This document shows positions 9,524 through 43,650 of a stretch of DNA of 64,000 nt, one piece after another (positions within the stretch are counted from its first letter, which is position 1; every line of letters starts with the position of its first letter). Below the pieces are notes generated by a model that ran no database searches, was not told the origin of the DNA, and saw only the letters and a list, made by a program, of their open reading frames with translations. The stretch lies in IMG/VR virus record IMGVR_UViG_3300021171_000008, positions 1 to 64,000 of that record; one strand, 5' to 3'. This DNA comes from a virus. Made by a program: the position numbers and the translations under genes.

Positions 9524-12500
9524 ATGGGCTCCAAGGGCGGGACCACTCAGCAAACGTCATCCTCTTCGGGGCCGCCTCCCCAGGTAATGGCTGAGTATCA
9601 GGGCTTAGTCGACCGCGCCACCAACGTCGCGAACCAGCCCTATCAACCCTACACGGGCGAACAGGTCGCCCCGCTGACCAGCCAGACGCAGGCAGGGCTC
9701 GGGGGAATCAGTCAGTACGCGGGCGCGGCGCAGCCCTATCTCGGTGCGGCGGGGGCGATGACGATGGGAGCGAGCGCTCCCGTCAATCCCGCGCAATTCC
9801 AAGGCATGGGTAGCCTTAGTCCTTTCATGAATCCGTACACGTCCTCGGTCGTCGACACGACCCAGGCCGAAATGAATAATCAGAACCAACAGCAAAGCCA
9901 ATTTTTAAACAGCGCCAACATCAGTTCTGGGGCGTTTGGCGGCGACCGCGCCGGCATCGGTCAATCGATCCTCGCCAACCAGCAGCAGCTCGCCGAAGCG
10001 CCGACGATCGCGGGCCTCAACCAAGCGAACTTCACCCAGGCGATGAGCGACTGGACGGGCCAGCAAGGCGTCAACCTCGCGGCGCAGCAAGCCAACCGGA
10101 GCGCCCAGCTCGCGGGCGGCGCCCAGCTCGGGCAGATCGGCTTGAGCGCGCAGAACGCGGGCATGCAGGGCGCACAGGCGGACATCCAGGCGGGCATGAT
10201 CCCGCAGCAGGAACAGCAGGCGATCGATACCGCCGCCCAGCAGATGTACCAGCAGGGCCAAGCCTATCCGTTCACGACGACGGGATGGCTCGGCAATATT
10301 ATCGAGGGCGTTGGCGGCCAATCAGGAGGCCAGAGCCAGACCACTTCGCCGGGACCGAACTCGATCACGCAGGGGCTCGGCGCGGCGTCGCAAGGCCTCG
10401 GCCTTCTCACCAGCCTCATCCCCGGCCTCTCGGACGTGCGCGCGAAGGAAAACGTGGAGGAGATCGGCAAGACCTACGACGGGCAGAACATCTACCGCTA
10501 CAATTTCAAGGGCGATCCGCGCACGCAGATCGGCTTAATCGCGCAGGAGGAGGCCTACCACGATCCTGGCAGCGTCCAGCGCGTTGGCATGGGCGATCTG
10601 CTCGGCATCGACTACGAGCGCGCGACGGAAGGCGCGGCCGAGCGCGGCCATTTCGCCGACGGCGGCGCGCCGGATCAAGGACCGCCTCCTGGCGGCATGA
10701 CGCAGGGCGTGACGCAGGGCGCCGGCCAGCCGCAGCAAAGACCGCAAGCGATGACGCCCGATCAGTCGCTCATGTACATGGGCGATCCCAGCGCGCGCGC
10801 GGGCATGGGCTCGTTCGCTCTCATGGGCGGGACCAATATGCATCCCCAGCCCGAGATGCCGATCGCGGGATCGCGAGGAGCGCCGCCGCCTCAAGTTCCA
10901 CTGGGTGGAGGTGGAGCTGGCCTGTCGCCTCTCGGCGCCCCCTTGGAGCCTATCTTCACAAGCCAACCCCAAGGCCAAGGGAGCGGCGGCGCGTGGCGCG
11001 GCGGGCGGCAGGGCTTCCAAGGCGGCGGCCAAGCCCCCGTCGCGGGTAACCCCGCGTTCGGCATGGCGACTCCTGGGTTCCAGCCTGGGGTCGATCCGCT
11101 GAATGATCTCGCGGGCGTTAACGAGGCCGTCTTCGGCGAGGAGACCGCCGGCTCCAAGAACCCCTACTACGGGCTCGATTTTGACCAGATCCAGGCGATC
11201 AGCGGCGGGCAGTGGATGCCGCCGCAGACCGGCGCGGTGCAGCCGGACTATGGGAACCTCCAGACCTCGCCCGAGTATGGCGCGGCCGAGTCTTCTCTCG
11301 CAGGGCAATTCGGAGGCGGCTACACGCCGGGATCGACGACGCTTGGACCCGGCGGCGCGGGCCCGACAGCTCCTGCCGCCAATGCTGGTGGCGGCAGCGG
11401 CTTCATGGGCGCCCCGGCGATGGGCGGGATTGTCGGCGGAGCGCGGAGTCCTGGCGCGATGGGCGCGGCCGGCGCGACGCAAGGCGGGCTGTCTCGGGGC
11501 CAGCTCTCCGATATCTTTAGCGAATATTTTGGCGGCGAGTCGCCTGCGCAGGCAGCGCCGCCGCAGGGGCCCCTCCCAGGTCACGCGGACGGTGGTCGCA
11601 TCGAGCGGCAGATGGGCGGTCCGACGTCGACTCTGGCGCTCCCCATCAATCAAGGGCCATGGGGCGTTCAGAGCGGCGGGAGCGGCGGCGGGACCCAGCC
11701 AGCGGCGAATAGTGGCGGCGGGGGCGGGCCATGGACGCAGATGATGGGCACCCCGAGCGCCATAAACCCGAGCGGCAACGCGCAAGTCGGCATGGCGAAC
11801 TGGGCCGGGTTCTCAGGCCCGCAAGGCATGATGGAAGCGGACGCGGAAGGCTTTAGGGCCGACGGAGGAGGAGTGAACATGAACGGTCGCTCTGGCTTCC
11901 AACGCGGAGGCAGCCCCTTCACCACGTACCAGCCCACGGCGAACCCGGCGCGCAATCCGCCGACCTACACCGCGCTCGACCTCTCGCACCTGTTCGGGGG
12001 CGGGCAGCCGCAGCAAGCGCCGCGCGCCATCCAGATCCAGCGTCAGCTCGGGCAGGCGCGCGCCAAGGCGGCGGTTCAGCGCGGCATGGTGCGCCCTCGC
12101 GTCATCGCGCCGGACCCGGTGACCGGCCAGCATCACGACATCACGCCGCAACCGGACCATCCTTCGACCGCGCGCTATCCCGGTTGGCCGACTCCTGGCC
12201 CTGGCTCTCCCGAAGGGCTGCCGATGTCGGCGCCACGATCGGTCGCGCCCGTGGGAGGTCAAGATCCCCAAGCCGCGAGGGGCCCGCTGCAGCTGAGTTC
12301 GCGCGGTCCTGGCATGGGCTATCCGGCCAGAGGCATAGTCCCGGCAGAGGCAGCAGGAACGCCTGAAGCAGGAACGCTGACCAATGCGGCGTTCCGGTAT
12401 CCCATGCCGAAGCAAGAGGTCCCTGCGAGATCTTCGCCGATTTATGAGGGCGGGCGCGGCCTCGCGACGGTCACGCCGCCGCTTGAGGCACGCAGGAGTG

Positions 12501-12769
12501 GAACAAGCCTTCGACCAGTGTCGAAGAGCCGATGGAGAGCCGCGAATTTTCAGAGGCTCCTACCGGGCGTCCGCTGGCCGCGCCGAGGCTCGTCGGCGCC
12601 GATCCGATGGGGCAAGGCCATAGCCTCTTGGCGCCGCACTCGATGCAGGCGCTCCCGCCGCCGTCGGGCGATGAAGCGCCCATGTGGACGAACGACAACG
12701 TCGACATCCCCGGCGTCTTCCGAGGCGCGGGCCGAGGGTTCACTGAGGCGCGCGGCGGTCGGGTCATGA
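9524..12769 (+). CDS. large ejection-type virion protein with S74-like chaperone segment
   Basis: 1081 residues as an open frame. Residues 1-265 are Gln/Ala/Gly-rich (YQPYTGEQVAPLTSQTQAGL, then many Q-rich helices), like internal or tail proteins of podovirus-type phages. Residues about 302-345 (SDVRAKENVEEIG..., IYRYNFKGDP, IGLIAQE) match the S74 chaperone signature. The rest is Gly/Pro-rich with short repeats FADGGAPD, HADGGRIE and RADGGG. After about base 12480 (residue ~986) the composition becomes Arg/Ser-rich and out-of-frame-like, while natural sequence continues in the -1 frame as the next gene. The true C-terminus may therefore be near 12480, or the two ORFs may be one gene. Confidence 0.65.
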   Translation: MGSKGGTTQQTSSSSGPPPQVMAEYQGLVDRATNVANQPYQPYTGEQVAPLTSQTQAGLGGISQYAGAAQPYLGAAGAMTMGASAPVNPAQFQGMGSLSPFMNPYTSSVVDTTQAEMNNQNQQQSQFLNSANISSGAFGGDRAGIGQSILANQQQLAEAPTIAGLNQANFTQAMSDWTGQQGVNLAAQQANRSAQLAGGAQLGQIGLSAQNAGMQGAQADIQAGMIPQQEQQAIDTAAQQMYQQGQAYPFTTTGWLGNIIEGVGGQSGGQSQTTSPGPNSITQGLGAASQGLGLLTSLIPGLSDVRAKENVEEIGKTYDGQNIYRYNFKGDPRTQIGLIAQEEAYHDPGSVQRVGMGDLLGIDYERATEGAAERGHFADGGAPDQGPPPGGMTQGVTQGAGQPQQRPQAMTPDQSLMYMGDPSARAGMGSFALMGGTNMHPQPEMPIAGSRGAPPPQVPLGGGGAGLSPLGAPLEPIFTSQPQGQGSGGAWRGGRQGFQGGGQAPVAGNPAFGMATPGFQPGVDPLNDLAGVNEAVFGEETAGSKNPYYGLDFDQIQAISGGQWMPPQTGAVQPDYGNLQTSPEYGAAESSLAGQFGGGYTPGSTTLGPGGAGPTAPAANAGGGSGFMGAPAMGGIVGGARSPGAMGAAGATQGGLSRGQLSDIFSEYFGGESPAQAAPPQGPLPGHADGGRIERQMGGPTSTLALPINQGPWGVQSGGSGGGTQPAANSGGGGGPWTQMMGTPSAINPSGNAQVGMANWAGFSGPQGMMEADAEGFRADGGGVNMNGRSGFQRGGSPFTTYQPTANPARNPPTYTALDLSHLFGGGQPQQAPRAIQIQRQLGQARAKAAVQRGMVRPRVIAPDPVTGQHHDITPQPDHPSTARYPGWPTPGPGSPEGLPMSAPRSVAPVGGQDPQAARGPLQLSSRGPGMGYPARGIVPAEAAGTPEAGTLTNAAFRYPMPKQEVPARSSPIYEGGRGLATVTPPLEARRSGTSLRPVSKSRWRAANFQRLLPGVRWPRRGSSAPIRWGKAIASWRRTRCRRSRRRRAMKRPCGRTTTSTSPASSEARAEGSLRRAAVGS

Positions 12770-15700
12770 GGCTGGCAGGAGGCCGGATCGGGTTCGCCGA
12801 TGGCGGCGATATCGACACGTCCTACGGCCCGCAACAGTCCGTAAGCGATCTGAGCGATGCGCAATTCGGGAGCGCGCTTCAGGATGAGATGAACCAAGCG
12901 GGCTCCGGCAACCTCGGCTGGATCGACCAGCTGGATACCTCGTCGATGGGTTCATCGCCCCGGCGCGCTCAGATCGATCCGCGAGCTGTCGCCCAAGCGC
13001 CTAGCTTCCAGGGCGCTGGCGGCGGCGGAGGCGGCGGTCCGCCCTTCACTCAAGTCTCAAACATGGGCGGGCCGCCGATCTCCGCGCTCGACCTTTCGGG
13101 CCACTACACGCCGACGACCGGCAACGCTCGGGGGGCGACCTACGTCCCTGGCTCTCCTGGGGCCGGCATCAGCCCGAACGCGCGCGCTCAAGCGCCGGAG
13201 CATCCTGCGATCAAGATGGCTCGGCATATCTACGCGGCGGGCCATGCGGCGGGGAGGAAAGCGGCGGCGGCGCCAAATATCGACACGTCCTACGGCCCGC
13301 AGCTCTCGGACAAGATCGATACGTCCTACGGACCGCAGCAGCCGCCTGCAGCCTATGGCCACAGCTCGATCTCGCCCAGCTTCCAAGGCGGCGGCGGCGT
13401 CATGGGCTCCTCGCCCGTGATGAACGCGGGCGGCTACACGCCACAGGGCGAGGGCGTGACCGGCCAGACCTCGCAGGGCCGAGGCATGGGTTTCGGCGAC
13501 CTGTTCGGAGGCGGCGATCGGGCTGGCTTCGCCAGCGGCGGGCTGTCTTCCACAGCCGATCCGTTCCTGGCTGAGATCACAGCTTCGATGCCGCAGGCGC
13601 AAGGTGGGGGCGGGCACGGGCCTCCTGCGCCGCCTCCACCGGCGCCCCCTCCGCCGGCCGGCCAAGATCCGACGAAGGGGCTCGGCGACAGCCTGGGCAA
13701 GCTCGGCACCGCCGCGAAGAAATTCATGGGCCAGGACGCCGGCAACCAGACGACGCCGCAGAATTTGTCGCCGGCTGATCAGGCCACCATGCCGAACTTC
13801 ACGCCGGCCGACACGTCGACGATAGACGCTGGGATGTCAGGCTCCGTCTTTGACGGGCTCCAAGACTCGGATCTCGGCTTTAAGACAGGAGGTGGCGTAG
13901 GGCTTGGCTCCCTGCGCGGTGGCTTTTCAGATGGGGGGACGCCCGATACGGCCGATGCGCCCTCTGGGTTCGATCTCGCCGTTACGGGCGCTGCGCCGGT
14001 AGCCGCTCCGACGGGCGGTGGCGCCGCTCCTGCGGTGCCGGACTTGATCAAGCAGAACTTCGGCAGTCGGGCTGGATACGCCTCGACCATCTCCTCGCTC
14101 GAAAGCGGTTATGGCAAGAACTATGTCGGCGATGACAGCTCGTCGTTCGGGCCATTCCAGCTGCATATGGGCGGGCTCAGCGAGAAATATCCCCACCCTG
14201 GCCTCGGCGATGAGTTCAAGAAACAGACTGGCCTCGATGCGCGCGATCCCAAGACCGTGCCGCAACAGATCGCCTTCGTTTCGGACTACACGGCCAAGCA
14301 CGGCTGGAACGACTGGTCGACGAAGGCTCAAGCAGACAAGATAGCGGGCGGAGCCGACGTCCCGAGCGCGAGCGCTCAGCCCGCCCAAGCGAGCACGGAA
14401 TCCTACGGCGGCGGCTTCCAGCTTCCTGGCCCAAGCCAGAGCGGTCCTCCACCGGGCCAGCTGGACCGATCGAATCTCCAGGCGCCCACCATGGGCGACG
14501 AGCTGAAGCACGATCCTGGCGGTTACCTGATGAGCGTCGGCGCGGCGATGATGGCCAGCCGCTCGCCCTGGCTGGGCGTCGGCATCGGCGAGGGCCTCGT
14601 GGCCGGCAACAAATATCTCCAAGAGCAAAAGGAGCTGGAGAAGAGCTGGGGCTCGACCCAGGCGCAAATCAACAACCTGTCGCAGGAAGCGCGCGACCAT
14701 GGCGCGGACGCGGATCTGAAGGCCCAGCAGATCCAGATGGGCGCGCTGAATATGAGGCTCTATATGGCGGTGCTGCGCCAGAAGGGCTTGCTCGGCGGGG
14801 GGAGCACTAGCGACGGATCGGCCCCGTCAGGGCCCACAGGAGGCCCAGCAGCGCCCTCGACGGGTCTCAAGCCCTTCACGGGCCTCGGCGACCAGACGGG
14901 CTCCAGCGCGGCTCCTGGCGGCCCTGGTGGGCCGTCTGGCGCGGCTCCTGCGGGCAGCATCCCTAGCCTCAACGATGACCCAGCCTATAAGGCGGGCGTC
15001 GCCCTGGAAGCGCAGGGCAATCAGCAAAACATCATCAGGCCGGGGATCGGCAACGATCTTATCACAAAAGGCAAGGCCCAGCAGGAAGCCGCGAAAGCAG
15101 CCTGGGATAAGAAGGCCGAGATCGCGGCCAAGGGGCAAGAGGCGGTAACGTCGGCGACGACCGAGGCGCAGAAGCCTGCCCTTCAGTCCTATATAGAGAA
15201 CAGGCAGAAATTCGAGCAGAACTACGACCAGACCCGGAGCGAAATCTCCGAGCTGTCGAACATCTACCAGCATTTCCAGGCCGGTCGTTCGACCGAGGCG
15301 CAAGCCGAGCTGGCGAGCTGGGCGAATGCTTTCGGCCTCAAGCTGCCCCAAGCGGCGGGCTTCGACGCCGGAATGAAGTCGGCGATTCAGCAGGCCTTCG
15401 CTGCTGTCGCCAACTCGGGGCTCCAGAAAGCGCCGCGCGCGGGATTGCGCGAGGCCACGATGATGGTCGCCTCGCCATCGCGCGACCCGGCCGCGTTGCG
15501 CAAGATCCTCACCGATCAGCTCGCGACGCTCGATTACAATCACGATCTCTACCAGAACGTCCCTGGCCACAATCTGAGTGTCAGCGATGACATCGAGGGC
15601 TTCACCAAGGCGCACAAGTACGAGGACTATCTGGGCAAGGCGCGGAAAGAGATTCCGCTGTTCAAGGGCATCACGCCCGAGACGCTGAAGACTACGACCG

Positions 15701-15825
15701 GCGAAGATTGGCCGGCACCGGCTTTGCCGAGCGGCCTCCCGGCTGGGACGAGGTGGAGTCCATCGCAAGAGAAGTGGTTCGACCCGTCGGGGAGGGCTTA
15801 CGACCAGACTGGGAAACCGATCTGA
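12532..15825 (+). CDS. large ejection-type virion protein with lysozyme-like domain
   Basis: 1097 residues; its frame is open from 12487, in the -1 frame relative to the upstream ORF. N-terminal half: Gly/Pro-rich, with three IDTSYGPQ copies and repeated FADGG, FASGG and FSDGG motifs. Residues about 503-610 look like a lytic transglycosylase/lysozyme-like domain: STISSLESGYGKNYVG with probable catalytic Glu near 523, then SSSFGPFQLHMGG and the helices IAFVSDYTAKHGWNDWS. C-terminal third is helical. In podoviruses such proteins open the peptidoglycan for DNA entry. The ATG at 12532 has no clear RBS. The stop overlaps the next ATG (TGATG). Confidence 0.65.
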   Translation: MESREFSEAPTGRPLAAPRLVGADPMGQGHSLLAPHSMQALPPPSGDEAPMWTNDNVDIPGVFRGAGRGFTEARGGRVMRLAGGRIGFADGGDIDTSYGPQQSVSDLSDAQFGSALQDEMNQAGSGNLGWIDQLDTSSMGSSPRRAQIDPRAVAQAPSFQGAGGGGGGGPPFTQVSNMGGPPISALDLSGHYTPTTGNARGATYVPGSPGAGISPNARAQAPEHPAIKMARHIYAAGHAAGRKAAAAPNIDTSYGPQLSDKIDTSYGPQQPPAAYGHSSISPSFQGGGGVMGSSPVMNAGGYTPQGEGVTGQTSQGRGMGFGDLFGGGDRAGFASGGLSSTADPFLAEITASMPQAQGGGGHGPPAPPPPAPPPPAGQDPTKGLGDSLGKLGTAAKKFMGQDAGNQTTPQNLSPADQATMPNFTPADTSTIDAGMSGSVFDGLQDSDLGFKTGGGVGLGSLRGGFSDGGTPDTADAPSGFDLAVTGAAPVAAPTGGGAAPAVPDLIKQNFGSRAGYASTISSLESGYGKNYVGDDSSSFGPFQLHMGGLSEKYPHPGLGDEFKKQTGLDARDPKTVPQQIAFVSDYTAKHGWNDWSTKAQADKIAGGADVPSASAQPAQASTESYGGGFQLPGPSQSGPPPGQLDRSNLQAPTMGDELKHDPGGYLMSVGAAMMASRSPWLGVGIGEGLVAGNKYLQEQKELEKSWGSTQAQINNLSQEARDHGADADLKAQQIQMGALNMRLYMAVLRQKGLLGGGSTSDGSAPSGPTGGPAAPSTGLKPFTGLGDQTGSSAAPGGPGGPSGAAPAGSIPSLNDDPAYKAGVALEAQGNQQNIIRPGIGNDLITKGKAQQEAAKAAWDKKAEIAAKGQEAVTSATTEAQKPALQSYIENRQKFEQNYDQTRSEISELSNIYQHFQAGRSTEAQAELASWANAFGLKLPQAAGFDAGMKSAIQQAFAAVANSGLQKAPRAGLREATMMVASPSRDPAALRKILTDQLATLDYNHDLYQNVPGHNLSVSDDIEGFTKAHKYEDYLGKARKEIPLFKGITPETLKTTTGEDWPAPALPSGLPAGTRWSPSQEKWFDPSGRAYDQTGKPI

Positions 15826-17762
15826 TGGCCGCGCTCCCCGATGATCTGGTTGACCCGGCACCGCCGCCTTCTGCTGCGCCCGCTGCGCCCGCGCTCCCGA
15901 GTGATCTCGTCGATCCAGCTGGCGCAGCTCCAACTGCGGGAGCTGGCGATAGCGATAGCGCCGCAGGCGCCTTCGGTTACGGCGTGATCAAGGGCATTCC
16001 TGGCGGCTCAACTATCGCCTCGCATGGAGTTCCGATCGCCATGCGTATTGGCAACGCCCTGAACTGGCTGAAGGGCGGCCCCAACGCAGACCAAATAAAA
16101 GCCATGGGCGGGGTGCCCCAAGATGCTGACGCGGCAAGCGCGGCGCTGTCGTCCAAGGGCAAGGCAGCGGCTGAAGAACACCCATGGCTTTATACGGCGG
16201 GAACCGCGCTCCCGATGGCTTTGGCTCCTGGGAGCGGCTCAGTCGCGGGGGCGGCTGGCTACGGCGGAGCGCTTGGCGTCAGCGAGGGCGTCGATGAAGG
16301 CGACAGCTACGCCGGCATCGCCACCAAGGGGGTTCTTGGCGCGGCTGGAGGAGGTCTTGGAGCCGCCGCCATAAACAAGGTCGTTCCCGTTTTTGGAGAC
16401 GCCACGCGCAAGGCCGTTCTTGAAGCCGCACAGCGCTTGAACACGACCATGCCGCGCTTCGCGGCCTCGACGAGCCCGCTTGTTAAGCGTGCGGGCATGA
16501 TTGGCTTCAGCGTCCCTGGCATGTCGACGCCGATCGAGGAAGCAACCCACGCATCAGTGTCAGGAATGGGCGCTGCTGCGGAGCAGACGGCGGCTGGCGC
16601 GACGAAGCAAACCGCTGGCGAGGCGGCGAGCACCGGCCTCAAGGATTGGATCGGACCAACCTCACAAGGCGAAGTCGACGCCTACTACAACCGCGCCAAC
16701 GCCGCGATGAATCAGAGCGCCAAAACGCCGCTCTATACGACGCAGTCCATCGCCAGTCAGATCGCCCAACGCCGACAAGCCGCCGGCATCTCAGGCACCG
16801 GAGGCGCGGTCGACCACGTCATGGATGCGCTCCAGCGGCCCGGTGGGCTGACATACAACGGCATCAAAGATCTGCGGTCGAGCGTCGGCGAAATGATGAA
16901 CCAGAGCATCCTCCCGCAGGGGATGTCTGGGGCCGAGCTGAAACAAATCTACAGCGGCTTGAGCACCGATCTCGATCGCGCAGCGTATACGGCTGGTGGC
17001 CAGCAAGGATTGCAGCTGCACAACGCCGCGAACGCTTTCGCGAAACAAACCGCCGACCGCCGGGATCAGTTATCCGCGCTCTTGGGTGGTCCGAAGGCGG
17101 GTGCGTCGGATGAGGCGGTCTTTCAGGCGCTCAAGACCGCCGCTGGCAAAACAGGCGGAGCAGACATCGATCTCTTGAGGAAAGCGAGCACGGCCATTAC
17201 GCCGCAGAGCTGGGACCATGTCGCTCGTGGCATGGTTTCGACGCTGGGCCGAGACGCCGATGGCAACTTTAGCCCGCAGCGTTTCATAACCGATTACGGG
17301 AAAATCTCGGACGACGCGAAGGGCGTCCTGTTTGGGCAGAATCCCCAGCTGCGCCAGAACCTCGACGACCTCCACACTGTATCATCACAGTGGAAGAGCC
17401 TTTACAAATACGCGAACCCCTCGGGGACCGCCGGACATGGCGCGGGCATCGGCATGGCGATCGAGGGCTGGCGCCACCCGCTTAAAACGCTCGGGCTGTA
17501 TCTCACTGGATCAGGCGTTGGCAAACTCTTGGCGACCCCTGCGGGCGCAGGAGGAGCCGCAAATTTTGTGAGGGCAGTAGGCTCTGGGAATCTCAACGCG
17601 ATCCGAGACGCGGCGACGCGGGTTTCGGCGACCGCAGGGGCACAGTTTGGCGCGCGCGTCGATCCTATGGCGCTGGCCGCCTTGGCGATGGAGCGGCCTT
17701 GGGAAGGAGAAGGTGGAGAGCACGGCGCAGGGGATACAGGCGGCGGCGGGCAGCCTCAATGA
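15825..17762 (+). CDS. ejection-type internal virion protein
   Basis: 645 residues, Ala/Gly-rich. It starts MAALPDDLVDPAPPP, with the same DLVDPA element repeated 20 residues on. A glycine-rich hydrophobic region (about 120-200: GTALPMALAPGSGSVAGAAG, KGVLGAAGGGLGAAAINK) could insert into membrane. Helical middle (DAYYNRANAAMNQ, IKDLRSSVGEMMNQ, IYSGLSTDLDRAAYTA) resembles helical shafts of DNA-ejection proteins. Starting at 15825 uses the TGATG coupling with the previous gene; an upstream ATG at 15708 would overlap that gene by 118 bases. The 3' end overlaps a convergent minus-strand gene by 98 bases. Confidence 0.65.
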   Translation: MAALPDDLVDPAPPPSAAPAAPALPSDLVDPAGAAPTAGAGDSDSAAGAFGYGVIKGIPGGSTIASHGVPIAMRIGNALNWLKGGPNADQIKAMGGVPQDADAASAALSSKGKAAAEEHPWLYTAGTALPMALAPGSGSVAGAAGYGGALGVSEGVDEGDSYAGIATKGVLGAAGGGLGAAAINKVVPVFGDATRKAVLEAAQRLNTTMPRFAASTSPLVKRAGMIGFSVPGMSTPIEEATHASVSGMGAAAEQTAAGATKQTAGEAASTGLKDWIGPTSQGEVDAYYNRANAAMNQSAKTPLYTTQSIASQIAQRRQAAGISGTGGAVDHVMDALQRPGGLTYNGIKDLRSSVGEMMNQSILPQGMSGAELKQIYSGLSTDLDRAAYTAGGQQGLQLHNAANAFAKQTADRRDQLSALLGGPKAGASDEAVFQALKTAAGKTGGADIDLLRKASTAITPQSWDHVARGMVSTLGRDADGNFSPQRFITDYGKISDDAKGVLFGQNPQLRQNLDDLHTVSSQWKSLYKYANPSGTAGHGAGIGMAIEGWRHPLKTLGLYLTGSGVGKLLATPAGAGGAANFVRAVGSGNLNAIRDAATRVSATAGAQFGARVDPMALAALAMERPWEGEGGEHGAGDTGGGGQPQ

Positions 17763-41105: not shown

Positions 41106-41312
41106 TCAACCCATCGCGGCGAGCTGGAGGGCGTCGCACATATGCTCGAACGCCTTCCACTCGTTGTCATCGCGAGTGATCCGCGATTGCTCGCTTCTGA
41201 GGCGGCCCAGCGCGTAGCCAACCTCCTCCGCCGAATAGAGTCCGGCGAGCGCGAGGGCGCGCAACGCCACGCGATACAGTTCAACGGCGTCTTCGCTTGG
41301 GGCATCAATCAT
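41106..41312 (-). CDS. small helical hypothetical protein
   Basis: 68 residues: EDAVELYRVALRALALAGLYSAEEVGYALGRLRSEQSRITRDDNEWKAFEHMCDALQLAAMG. Helical. GGAGTCGAACC lies inside the upstream gene, which it overlaps by 8 bases. Confidence 0.6.
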   Translation of the reverse strand: MIDAPSEDAVELYRVALRALALAGLYSAEEVGYALGRLRSEQSRITRDDNEWKAFEHMCDALQLAAMG

Positions 41313-41592
41313 GGTTCGACTCCTTCAATCGACCGAGGGCGCGTGCCGCCTCTGCTTGTCGTTTCTCTTGAGCGGCGGCGCCCCTAACCTCGTTCCAATG
41401 AGCGCGCAGCTCACGATCCAAACAGCCACAAGACTTTGTGTGGCCCCTGCGCAGATTGTTGCTGCGCGCGATCGAGGTCGCGCCGCAGTCGCATGAACAA
41501 TTCCAAAATGTGTGCTTGCCAGCTCGCGCGGCGAGTCGGACGGCAATGAGCCGCCCGAAACGGATTCCGCTCAGATCGACGATGGCGGGCAT
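41305..41592 (-). CDS. zinc-finger-like DNA-binding phage protein
   Basis: 95 residues: IRFGRLIAVRLAARAGKHTFWNCSCDCGATSIARSNNLRRGHTKSCGCLDRELR. The 'F-G-R-L-x-V', 'W-x-C-x-C-D-C-G', 'N-L-x-x-G-x-T-x-S-C-G-C' signature belongs to the small phage zinc-ribbon family found near HNH or AP2-type proteins. Start overlaps the ArdC stop (TAATG). Confidence 0.75.
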   Translation of the reverse strand: MPAIVDLSGIRFGRLIAVRLAARAGKHTFWNCSCDCGATSIARSNNLRRGHTKSCGCLDRELRAHWNEVRGAAAQEKRQAEAARALGRLKESNHD

Positions 41593-42506
41593 TAGGCGGC
41601 CTCCAGAGCGGGTTCCTCCTCGTCCGCCTCCTCTGCACTCACCTTGCCGCGTAACCAGTCTACGGCCTTGCTGGCCGCACTGGCGGCGGTCACGATCGCC
41701 GTCTCTTTCTGGGACAGGAGCGAAACCCAGTGGTCGATGTAGGCGGCCGGAGCCTCGCCCATGTCGATGCCCCACTCGGCGCAGACGAAAGCCGCCGTTA
41801 GCTCGGCGATCAGCTCCTCGGCCGCATATTCGCGGTCCCCAAACTTGCCCTTCAGCTCGCGGCCCAGGCGCGAGGGATGCCCGGTCGCGTGGCCCATCTC
41901 ATGAAAGAGCGTGCTGTAGAAGGCATGGGCGCCGACAAAGGCCTCAAACGCGGGCATCTGGATGCGATCGAGCGAGGGCGCATACTGGGCGCGCGCGCCT
42001 CGGCCTTCCTCGATGCGGATCTCGGTCGCGGCGACGAAGGCGTCGAGATCAGCGTCGCGCCCGTCAGGATTGACCGGGGCATGCTGGCGAGGCTCGCCCA
42101 GGCCCATGACCGAATCCGGCAGCCCCTCGCACTGCGCCACGTTGAAAACCGTGTAGCTGCGCAAGAAACCAATGGTCTTTTTCTCGCCAGGATTCTTATC
42201 GTCCTTTACGAGCATGCGCTTGACGAAGATCACGGCGACGCCGTGCTCGTGTTTCTTGACGTTGCCGCCTGCCGCCTTGGCCTGCTTGAAGGTCAGCCAG
42301 CGCGGCGTGCTGTAGCCCTCGACCTCGGCCACGCCCCAGAGCAACAGGACGTTAGCGCCGCTGTAGAAGCGGCCGGTGACCGCATTGCGCGGCATCACGC
42401 TGCCATGCGCGCCAACGCGCTCGGACCAGGGCTTGCGCCAGGGCGCAACGCCAGTTTTCAGCTGGGCGAGAATCTTGTCGGTGATCTCGCGGTGCATGTC
42501 TCGCAT
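41592..42506 (-). CDS. ardC: ArdC-like antirestriction protein
   Basis: 304 residues. N-terminal ssDNA-binding domain (DUF1738-type): REITDKILAQLKTGVAPWRKPW, AVTGRFYSGANVLLLWG, WLTFKQAKAAGGNVKKHEHG. C-terminal zincin-like metallopeptidase: STLFHEMGHATGHPSRLGR with HExxH, and AAEELIAELTAAFVCAEWG supplying the third ligand region. ArdC proteins protect incoming DNA from type I restriction and are typical of conjugative elements and phages. Preceded by a strong promoter, leader hairpin and GGAGTCGAACCC. Confidence 0.88.
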   Translation of the reverse strand: MRDMHREITDKILAQLKTGVAPWRKPWSERVGAHGSVMPRNAVTGRFYSGANVLLLWGVAEVEGYSTPRWLTFKQAKAAGGNVKKHEHGVAVIFVKRMLVKDDKNPGEKKTIGFLRSYTVFNVAQCEGLPDSVMGLGEPRQHAPVNPDGRDADLDAFVAATEIRIEEGRGARAQYAPSLDRIQMPAFEAFVGAHAFYSTLFHEMGHATGHPSRLGRELKGKFGDREYAAEELIAELTAAFVCAEWGIDMGEAPAAYIDHWVSLLSQKETAIVTAASAASKAVDWLRGKVSAEEADEEEPALEAA

Positions 42507-42585: not shown

Positions 42586-42752
42586 GATGGCGACGATTTT
42601 GGATTGCGGGCGCGCCGCTCGGCCTCGGCCCTGGCCGCCGCCTTTTCCTTGGTGCAGTGGCGAATATGCGCCGCCTTCCCCAGCGCATTGTTGGTGATAC
42701 GATCGCCGCAGATCGGGCAGACGACACGCCGCCAGCGAATTTTGCGGGTCAT
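42582..42752 (-). CDS. small zinc-ribbon protein
   Basis: 56 residues: MTRKIRWRRVVCPICGDRITNNALGKAAHIRHC, a C2HC-type finger (C-x2-C ... H-x3-H-C), then a basic Ala/Arg tail. Starts on the TGATG overlap with the 42928 gene; AAGGAG upstream. Probably nucleic-acid binding. Confidence 0.65.
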   Translation of the reverse strand: MTRKIRWRRVVCPICGDRITNNALGKAAHIRHCTKEKAAARAEAERRARNPKSSPS

Positions 42753-42928
42753 CAGCGCAGCTCCTTCCGCCGCGAATCCAGCTCGGCGCGGATGGCCTGA
42801 AGGTGAAGCTCCAGCACGCTCATCGCCAAACCGCACCGGGTTGAATCGCCGCTCTTGATGGCCTCTTCCGCGCGGCGCGCCTCGCGACGAATCTCGCGGC
42901 AGCGCGTAATGATGTTTACGCAGTCCAT
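42752..42928 (-). CDS. 58-residue helical protein behind hammerhead ribozyme A
   Basis: MDCVNIITRCREIRREARRAEEA, then RCGLAMSVLELHLQAIRAELDSRRKELR: two amphipathic helices. GGAGTCGAGAA precedes the ATG, 25 bases after the ribozyme's 3' end. Stop overlaps the zinc-ribbon ATG. No family recognised. Confidence 0.6.
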   Translation of the reverse strand: MDCVNIITRCREIRREARRAEEAIKSGDSTRCGLAMSVLELHLQAIRAELDSRRKELR

Positions 42929-42956
42929 TTCTCGACTCCTTCAGATTGCTGTGAGT

Positions 42957-43022
42957 AGGCTCATCAGGCGGCGCCTTACGCCGCGACACAGAGGCCCCAG
43001 GACGGGCCTCCGCGTTTCGCCC
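42957..43022 (-). ncRNA. type II hammerhead ribozyme A
   Basis: Read 5'-3' on the minus strand: stem II 3' side GGGC (43022-43019), core GAAA (43018-43015), stem III CGCGGAGGCCC with GGGCCTCTGTG (11 pairs including G-U), cleavage triplet GUC (42987-42985), stem I GCGGCG/CGCCGC with loop TAAGG (42984-42968), core CTGATGA (42967-42961), stem II 5' side GCCT (42960-42957). The last A of GAAA pairs with U of GUC, as the family requires. Predicted cut is between 42985 and 42984, 56 bases before the downstream ATG. All invariant core residues are present; activity is inferred. Confidence 0.85.
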
Positions 43023-43047
43023 TGGTTCAGAGTCCCGCTCGCGTTCC

Positions 43048-43392
43048 TCAGACGTAGACTTTCCCGCTGCCGCCCTCTTCGATGTCGATCGGGTCATATT
43101 CGCCCGTGACCGCGCCGAACTCGTCAGGCTGCAACAGATATTCGCGGACATGTTCCCAGCCGCGATCTGCGGTGCGAGGCACGATGCGCAAAAGATGCTC
43201 CGGCGGGAACCCAAAGGACTCGTCCTCAAAATCAACGCGCACGCAGTCCGCCGTCTCGCGCTCGCTTCCAGTGACAGTCGCCAACTCGCAAGCGACCAGC
43301 CGTCCGTCCCAGTCGGCAATGTCATCGCCCTCAAGGTCCACTCGGTCGCCAATGCGAATATCGGCGGCCTTCACTTCGATCATGCATTCCAT
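43048..43392 (-). CDS. hypothetical beta-rich protein behind hammerhead ribozyme B
   Basis: 114 residues: MIEVKAADIRIGDRVDLEGDDIADWDGRLVACELATVTGSERETADCVRVDFEDESFGFPPEHLLRIV. A KOW/SH3-like beta barrel is plausible. GGAGTCGAAGACC precedes ATG; the ribozyme ends 20 bases upstream. Ends 26 bases before hammerhead A. Confidence 0.6.
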   Translation of the reverse strand: MECMIEVKAADIRIGDRVDLEGDDIADWDGRLVACELATVTGSERETADCVRVDFEDESFGFPPEHLLRIVPRTADRGWEHVREYLLQPDEFGAVTGEYDPIDIEEGGSGKVYV

Positions 43393-43411
43393 GGTCTTCG
43401 ACTCCGTTGGT

Positions 43412-43467
43412 AGGCTCATCAGTGGCGGCCAAACCGCCAGACGCGCGCCAGAGCGCGCGTTTCGCCT
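43412..43467 (-). ncRNA. type II hammerhead ribozyme B
   Basis: Minus strand 5'-3': stem II AGGC (43467-43464), core GAAA (43463-43460), stem III CGCGCGC-TCTG-GCGCGCG, perfect, extended by the A-U pair, cleavage triplet GUC (43442-43440), stem I TGGCGG/CCGCCA with loop TTTGG (43439-43423), core CTGATGA (43422-43416), stem II GCCT (43415-43412). Every core position fits, and sequence differences from ribozyme A are compensated in the stems. Predicted cut is between 43440 and 43439. It begins right after the stop codon of the upstream gene. Confidence 0.88.
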
Positions 43468-43650
43468 TCAGAACTTGACCGGGATCATGGTGACGCAATT
43501 GTCCTCTGTCTTTTCCAGGCGGACATGGCGCCACATATGGAGTTCGCGATCCCGGCGGATGCGCGCGAACTGTTTAGCCTCGGACTCATTGTCGAAGGCG
43601 CGGATCAGGTCTTGAGTGATACCGGGGTAGGTCACGATCCACTTGGTCAT
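43468..43650 (-). CDS. small hypothetical protein
   Basis: 60 residues: MTKWIVTYPGITQDLIRAFDNESEAKQFARIRRDRELHMWRHVRLEK. Beta-alpha-beta. ATG overlaps the upstream TGA. Its stop is immediately followed by hammerhead ribozyme B. Confidence 0.65.
   Translation of the reverse strand: MTKWIVTYPGITQDLIRAFDNESEAKQFARIRRDRELHMWRHVRLEKTEDNCVTMIPVKF

Follow-up and report, generated by a model that had tools for sequence, protein, structure and literature searches.

Two complete type II hammerhead ribozymes, HHR1 and HHR2, are predicted on the minus strand of the window (the whole 64-kb stretch of DNA that was analysed, from a virus entry of 78,422 bases in IMG/VR in which a terminase is present), where they lie between three consecutive small genes of the same strand. 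The best explanation of the pair is mRNA processing, to which we give a probability of about 0.78. HHR1 abuts the stop codon of a 60-aa gene and ends 19 nt upstream of the ATG of a 114-aa gene, and HHR2 starts 25 nt past the stop codon of the latter and ends 28 nt upstream of the ATG of a 58-aa gene. The features of the region are:

43468-43650, minus strand: upstream small gene, 60 aa, family F16 (ORF list), its stop abutting HHR1
43412-43467, minus strand: HHR1, type II hammerhead ribozyme (Rfam, phage model and fold)
43439-43440, minus strand: predicted cleavage site of HHR1, 3' of C17 (43440), from the GUC before stem I
43393-43411, minus strand: HHR1 3' tail (ACCAAC), and GGAGTCGA as the ribosome-binding sequence of the gene whose ATG is at 43392 (sequence)
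43048-43392, minus strand: 114-aa middle gene of family F17 (translation), the cassette enclosed by HHR1 and HHR2
42957-43022, minus strand: HHR2, type II hammerhead ribozyme (phage model and fold)
42984-42985, minus strand: predicted cleavage site of HHR2, 3' of C17 (42985), from the GUC before stem I
42929-42956, minus strand: HHR2 3' tail, and GGAGTCGA upstream of the gene whose ATG is at 42928 (sequence)
42752-42928, minus strand: downstream small gene, 58 aa, family F14 (translation)
41592-42506, minus strand: downstream ArdC-like antirestriction protein gene (ArdcN and MPTase-PolyVal domains; Pfam PF08401, 8.8e-37, and PF18818, 2.3e-41)

HHR1 has the sequence AGGC-GAAA-CGCGCGC..GCGCGCG-UC / UGGCGG..CCGCCA-CUGAUGA-GCCU, and HHR2 the sequence GGGC-GAAA-CGCGGAGGCCC..GGGCCUCUGUG-UC / GCGGCG..CGCCGC-CUGAUGA-GCCU. 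The conserved core of HHR1 consists of GAAA, an NUH cleavage triplet and CUGANGA, and HHR2 likewise combines the conserved core with three stems (fold and strict descriptor); both have the type II order, with stem II open (4 bp) and stems I and III closed. Stem III is 8 bp long in HHR1 (counting the A15.1-U16.1 pair) and 12 bp in HHR2, and stem I is 6-7 bp in each. Folded alone, each has the three-helix structure as its minimum free energy form. A strict descriptor matches exactly these two elements in the 64 kb, and 200 shuffled windows give no match at all. A covariance model built from 57 other phage hammerheads (four of them from sister phages, with the window sequences excluded) scores HHR1 at 61.4 bits (E 2e-15) and HHR2, which was left out of the training, at 48.7 bits (E ~1e-11); the next best site in the window reaches 9.9 bits, and the remaining 14 kb of the record contain no match to this phage model. 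The preliminary description had placed type II hammerheads in both leaders, and at the level of sequence and predicted fold this is confirmed, with descriptor, fold and phage model agreeing on the same minus-strand places. The Rfam covariance model (RF02276, Hammerhead_II) bears this out for one of the two: HHR1 scores 39.3 bits, above the gathering cutoff of 37, whereas HHR2 has no match, even at E<=5. HHR2 probably falls under the threshold because of its longer stem III; that threshold is a curated detection limit and not a defining chemical feature.

The ribozymes differ in their possible tertiary contacts and in their folding in context. A pseudoknot between loop I (UUGG) and the 3' tail (CCAA) can be read from the sequence of HHR1; in HHR2 loop I (GUAAG) pairs with the tail (CUCAC) with one A-C mismatch, giving no clear Watson-Crick pseudoknot. 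Such pseudoknots are frequent, though not universal, in type II hammerheads, and across 173 unique ribozymes the loop-tail complementarity is 3.29, against 2.91 with shuffled tails (sd 0.06). HHR2 also has a competing fold in which CAGG pairs with CCUG of the core, and with both flanks included its three-helix fold makes up a minority of 0.1-1% of the equilibrium ensemble. This value is typical, the median for phage type II hammerheads scored likewise with their flanks being 0.3%, and the share is low for HHR2 and the class alike because the calculation ignores tertiary contacts.

Covariation inside one genome had also been claimed for the pair. The stems do stay paired, but there are just two differing sequences, and a wider comparison is better support. 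A spaced-core search of IMG/VR (GCGAAAC..GTC..CTGATGAGC, pairing not required) identified at least 120 stretches, and among the distinct core-pattern matches listed both stems pair in 87 of 154, with 0.22 expected after shuffling of the spacers. This pattern-only test was used since covariation counts from descriptor-chosen sequences are partly circular, the descriptor itself demanding pairing. GAAA and CUGANGA are kept in all 150 aligned model matches, although the model search itself favours intact cores. Two weak model matches, at L174:1372-1444 (minus strand, 19.0 bits) and L150:2081-2174 (plus strand, 16.1 bits), may be decayed or chance hammerheads.

The 60-aa F16 gene has no match in Pfam or PHROG; its relative in contig L143 likewise precedes a hammerhead. 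Further downstream is the ArdC-like gene, and we note an HNH endonuclease-like ORF (41305-41604, minus strand) after it, downstream of the ribozyme cassettes. Spacing and strand indicate that the genes probably share a transcript. A search for sigma-70 promoters within this putative operon, uninformative for such a genome, found none. Some junctions of the operon lack a ribozyme, and cutting is therefore not needed everywhere. A comparison with annotated phages finds no DNA similar to the window region, and terminase relatives are distant (at most 30% in genome contigs and at most 41% in phages), with Paracoccus, Erythrobacter, Roseobacter and Rhizobium phages among the better phage matches.

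Close relatives are found among sister-phage contigs, in which the terminase is 80-99% identical. The same class of element occurs in at least nine of them, with one to five hammerheads each, in the stretch that runs from the terminase to just beyond the ArdC-like gene. Most begin -1 to 5 nt past a stop codon, the exceptions being HHR2 (25 nt) and one after the ArdC-like gene (12 nt), and for one sister hammerhead no preceding stop was found; they end 15-31 nt before a start codon, with GGAGTCGA in between, and the element made up of the HHR1 tail and GGAGTCGA is also present in sister phages. The hammerheads of L127, L130, L132, L143 and L144 are all under the Rfam threshold and all above 40 bits with the phage model. 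As with HHR2, they differ from RF02276 in that stem III is long and loop I is often of the GURAGGC type, whereas HHR1 has a core and stem order identical to those of the Rfam family.

Of 165 phage hammerheads, 79% have a stop codon no more than 60 nt upstream and a start codon preceded by a Shine-Dalgarno sequence no more than 70 nt downstream, compared with 18% of random places; at the median they stand 2 nt past the stop and 23 nt short of the start. All 89 adjacent hammerhead pairs are on the same strand, some contigs having been sampled more than once, and the intervals between ribozymes range from ~200 to ~2000 nt. In two loci, L026:5057-5185 and L185:8229-8354, two hammerheads stand back to back in one gene gap, ~11 nt apart; in the L026 pair, parts of both members would also fit a type III hammerhead. 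The phage loci surveyed contain, taken together, 14 hammerheads of types I and III and 183 of type II, numbers that do not measure a preference since the loci were picked by a type II pattern. The phage contigs L011, L019, L080 and L100 have mixed-type arrays with two type I hammerheads each, which have a near-identical GTAACACTGATGAGC..GTCTGTTAC frame in common, and L019 and L080 additionally have a type III hammerhead.

Much larger arrays exist in other phages. When whole records are searched, IMGVR_UViG_3300017605_000570, an uncultured phage, proves to have 24 type II hammerheads, all of them on the same strand and above the Rfam threshold, and three other records have 11, 9 and 9. A single ORF occupies 20 of the 23 intervals of the 24-ribozyme array, with its start 13-20 nt past one ribozyme and its stop at -2 to +4 nt relative to the next. 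This array (L182:1933-9521; 9939-17519 of the record) is the largest here, nearly every small gene having its own ribozyme. Cultured phages also contain these elements: Streptomyces phages Marav (OQ995441.1, 40828-49688; L185) and Salutena (MT708548.1, 37929-47356; L187) have 13 and 12 type II hammerheads, and Rhodobacter phage RcWaterboi has one, most of them confirmed by Rfam. In the Marav stretch 12 of 12 hammerheads fall entirely within the intergenic gaps of an annotation made by others, and the cultured-phage records have no annotated features under the matches examined.

We propose that HHR1 and HHR2 cut the polycistronic mRNA of the accessory region in cis at the gene junctions, during or just after transcription. 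Cuts after C17 at 43440/43439 and 42985/42984 would free a 455-nt one-gene mRNA. At each cut the stem III hairpin and a 2',3'-cyclic phosphate would form the 3' end of the upstream message, and a 5'-OH and the stem I hairpin would head the downstream one, ahead of its own GGAGTCGA ribosome site. That the operon mRNA would be split, with stem I at the 5' end of each downstream mRNA, as foreseen in the preliminary description, follows from the anatomy. Only the type II permutation gives one closed hairpin per product; in type I the upstream product retains the two closed hairpins, and in type III the downstream product does. Both new ends would therefore be shielded and the gene units independent. 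End hairpins and a 5'-OH are expected to slow exonucleases and the 5'-end-sensing RNase E in bacterial mRNA decay, and we infer that the messages may in this way be protected and their expression uncoupled.

A role in mRNA maturation, which had been suggested for the pair as an alternative to differential gene dosage, draws its backing from the position of the elements in relatives, past a stop codon, before a ribosome site and on the coding strand. Cleavage in vitro has been shown for the tandem hammerheads of A. tumefaciens, Azorhizobium and C. scindens, and for the A. tumefaciens set in E. coli as well (PMC3088659). Counting against the processing reading are the miss of HHR2 by Rfam, its want of a clear pseudoknot, its minority fold with flanks, the ribozyme-free junctions of the operon, and the 4 of 18 consensus hammerheads that did not cleave (PMC3088659).

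A reading that adds to mRNA processing, the two not excluding each other, is that the ribozyme and its leader persist chiefly as a portable shared sequence for recombination and swaps of small genes, the cut making the cassettes independent; we hold this possible, at somewhat less than even odds. It draws on the differences between sisters. The window and sister contig L003/L127 are ~95-97% identical over most of the region and have in common the middle gene (100% identical), HHR2 and the F14 gene that follows it, but the genes before the middle gene and the HHR1 sequences differ, homology restarting inside the ribozyme; further upstream L003/L127 has an extra gene and a third hammerhead that the window lacks. 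F16 and a hammerhead precede F17 in the window but F60 in L143, F22 and F23 precede hammerheads that are followed by differing genes in L144 and L145, and a near-identical ribozyme 3' half and tail (UCUGGCGGUUUGGCCGCCACUGAUGAGCCUACCAAC) stands before three unrelated genes (F17, F33 and F21).

For downstream genes common to two sisters, the same upstream neighbour is present at one of 14 ribozyme junctions and at 14 of 19 others (Fisher p 0.0002), but counted from the upstream gene the difference vanishes (1/7 against 14/44, p 0.66). For these counts ribozymes were taken from model matches, the sample is small and the ORF-based gene calls are coarse, and because sister pairs are not independent the turnover is a lead and no proof. 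Ribozyme-free junctions moreover often overlap (ATGA), which itself favours conservation, and DNA homology alone would not preserve a catalytic core. The sequence comparisons suggest that ribozyme junctions are places where neighbouring genes differ between sisters. A broader proposal, that type II hammerheads are general gene-cassette joints of phages, from which genes or gene pairs would be freed as two-hairpin mRNAs and could be gained, lost or swapped without disturbing their neighbours, is likewise tentative and falls short of an even chance.

The remaining readings are much less probable than mRNA processing. Regulated cleavage, riboswitch-like or dependent on Mg2+, could tune the dosage of the downstream gene in time, a possibility raised for phage hammerheads (PMC3088659) and one that the competing fold of HHR2 might serve; we consider it unlikely, there being no conserved sensor domain, with loops that are mostly short and stems that vary freely between copies. 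That the motifs arose by chance, or are decayed and inactive, finds some encouragement in the failure of Rfam to detect HHR2, but is highly improbable in view of the shuffled windows, the score of HHR2 with the separate model and the recurrence of the element class in sister contigs. Least probable are RNA circles or a retrozyme-like mobile RNA, since, although tandem ribozymes bound a 455-nt unit as in the unit-length RNAs of viroids and retrozymes, the stems differ between copies, interval lengths vary widely, the unit amounts to a gene that has a ribosome site to itself, and circles and spliced products were sought and not found by the authors of PMC3088659.

The synthetic insulator RiboJ is built on a satellite-RNA hammerhead with an added hairpin. 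Like the window ribozymes it is a hammerhead in a 5' leader, with a cut (predicted in their case) after which a hairpin heads the RNA upstream of the ribosome site, and in E. coli it raises transcript ~2-fold and protein 2-10-fold (PMC6206723). RiboJ sits after a promoter, whereas the natural type II elements of the window lie between genes and would also leave a hairpin on the upstream RNA.

Type II hammerheads were described by Perreault et al. 2011 (PMC3088659), clustered around prophage genes, and processing into gene-length mRNAs was proposed; clustered phage type II hammerheads and tandem cleavage are thus already known, and the HHR1/HHR2 pair, a group of same-strand hammerheads that flank phage genes, belongs to that kind. 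A 2017 review (PMC6155905) notes that several hammerheads flank small non-conserved phage ORFs and calls their role an open question. Like the window, the prophage clusters have several type II copies flanking single genes or short blocks, the genes are not constant, and an antirestriction gene is nearby: the A. tumefaciens triple adjoins ardA, and the window ribozymes have the ArdC-like gene downstream. The present elements differ from those clusters in that HHR2 and most of its sisters lack a loop I of the canonical UGG form and go undetected by Rfam, and in that the sister-phage ribozymes stand at joints where genes differ. Among open-licence papers we found no report of arrays beyond a few ribozymes or of ribozymes as joints for cassette exchange.

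Across an entire phage lineage most type II hammerheads escape the Rfam model, which points to under-counting. The order of stop codon, ribozyme, ribosome site and start codon, the predicted hairpins on both sides of the cut, the turnover of genes at the junctions and the arrays in Streptomyces phages together make the role of phage hammerheads testable in a laboratory phage.
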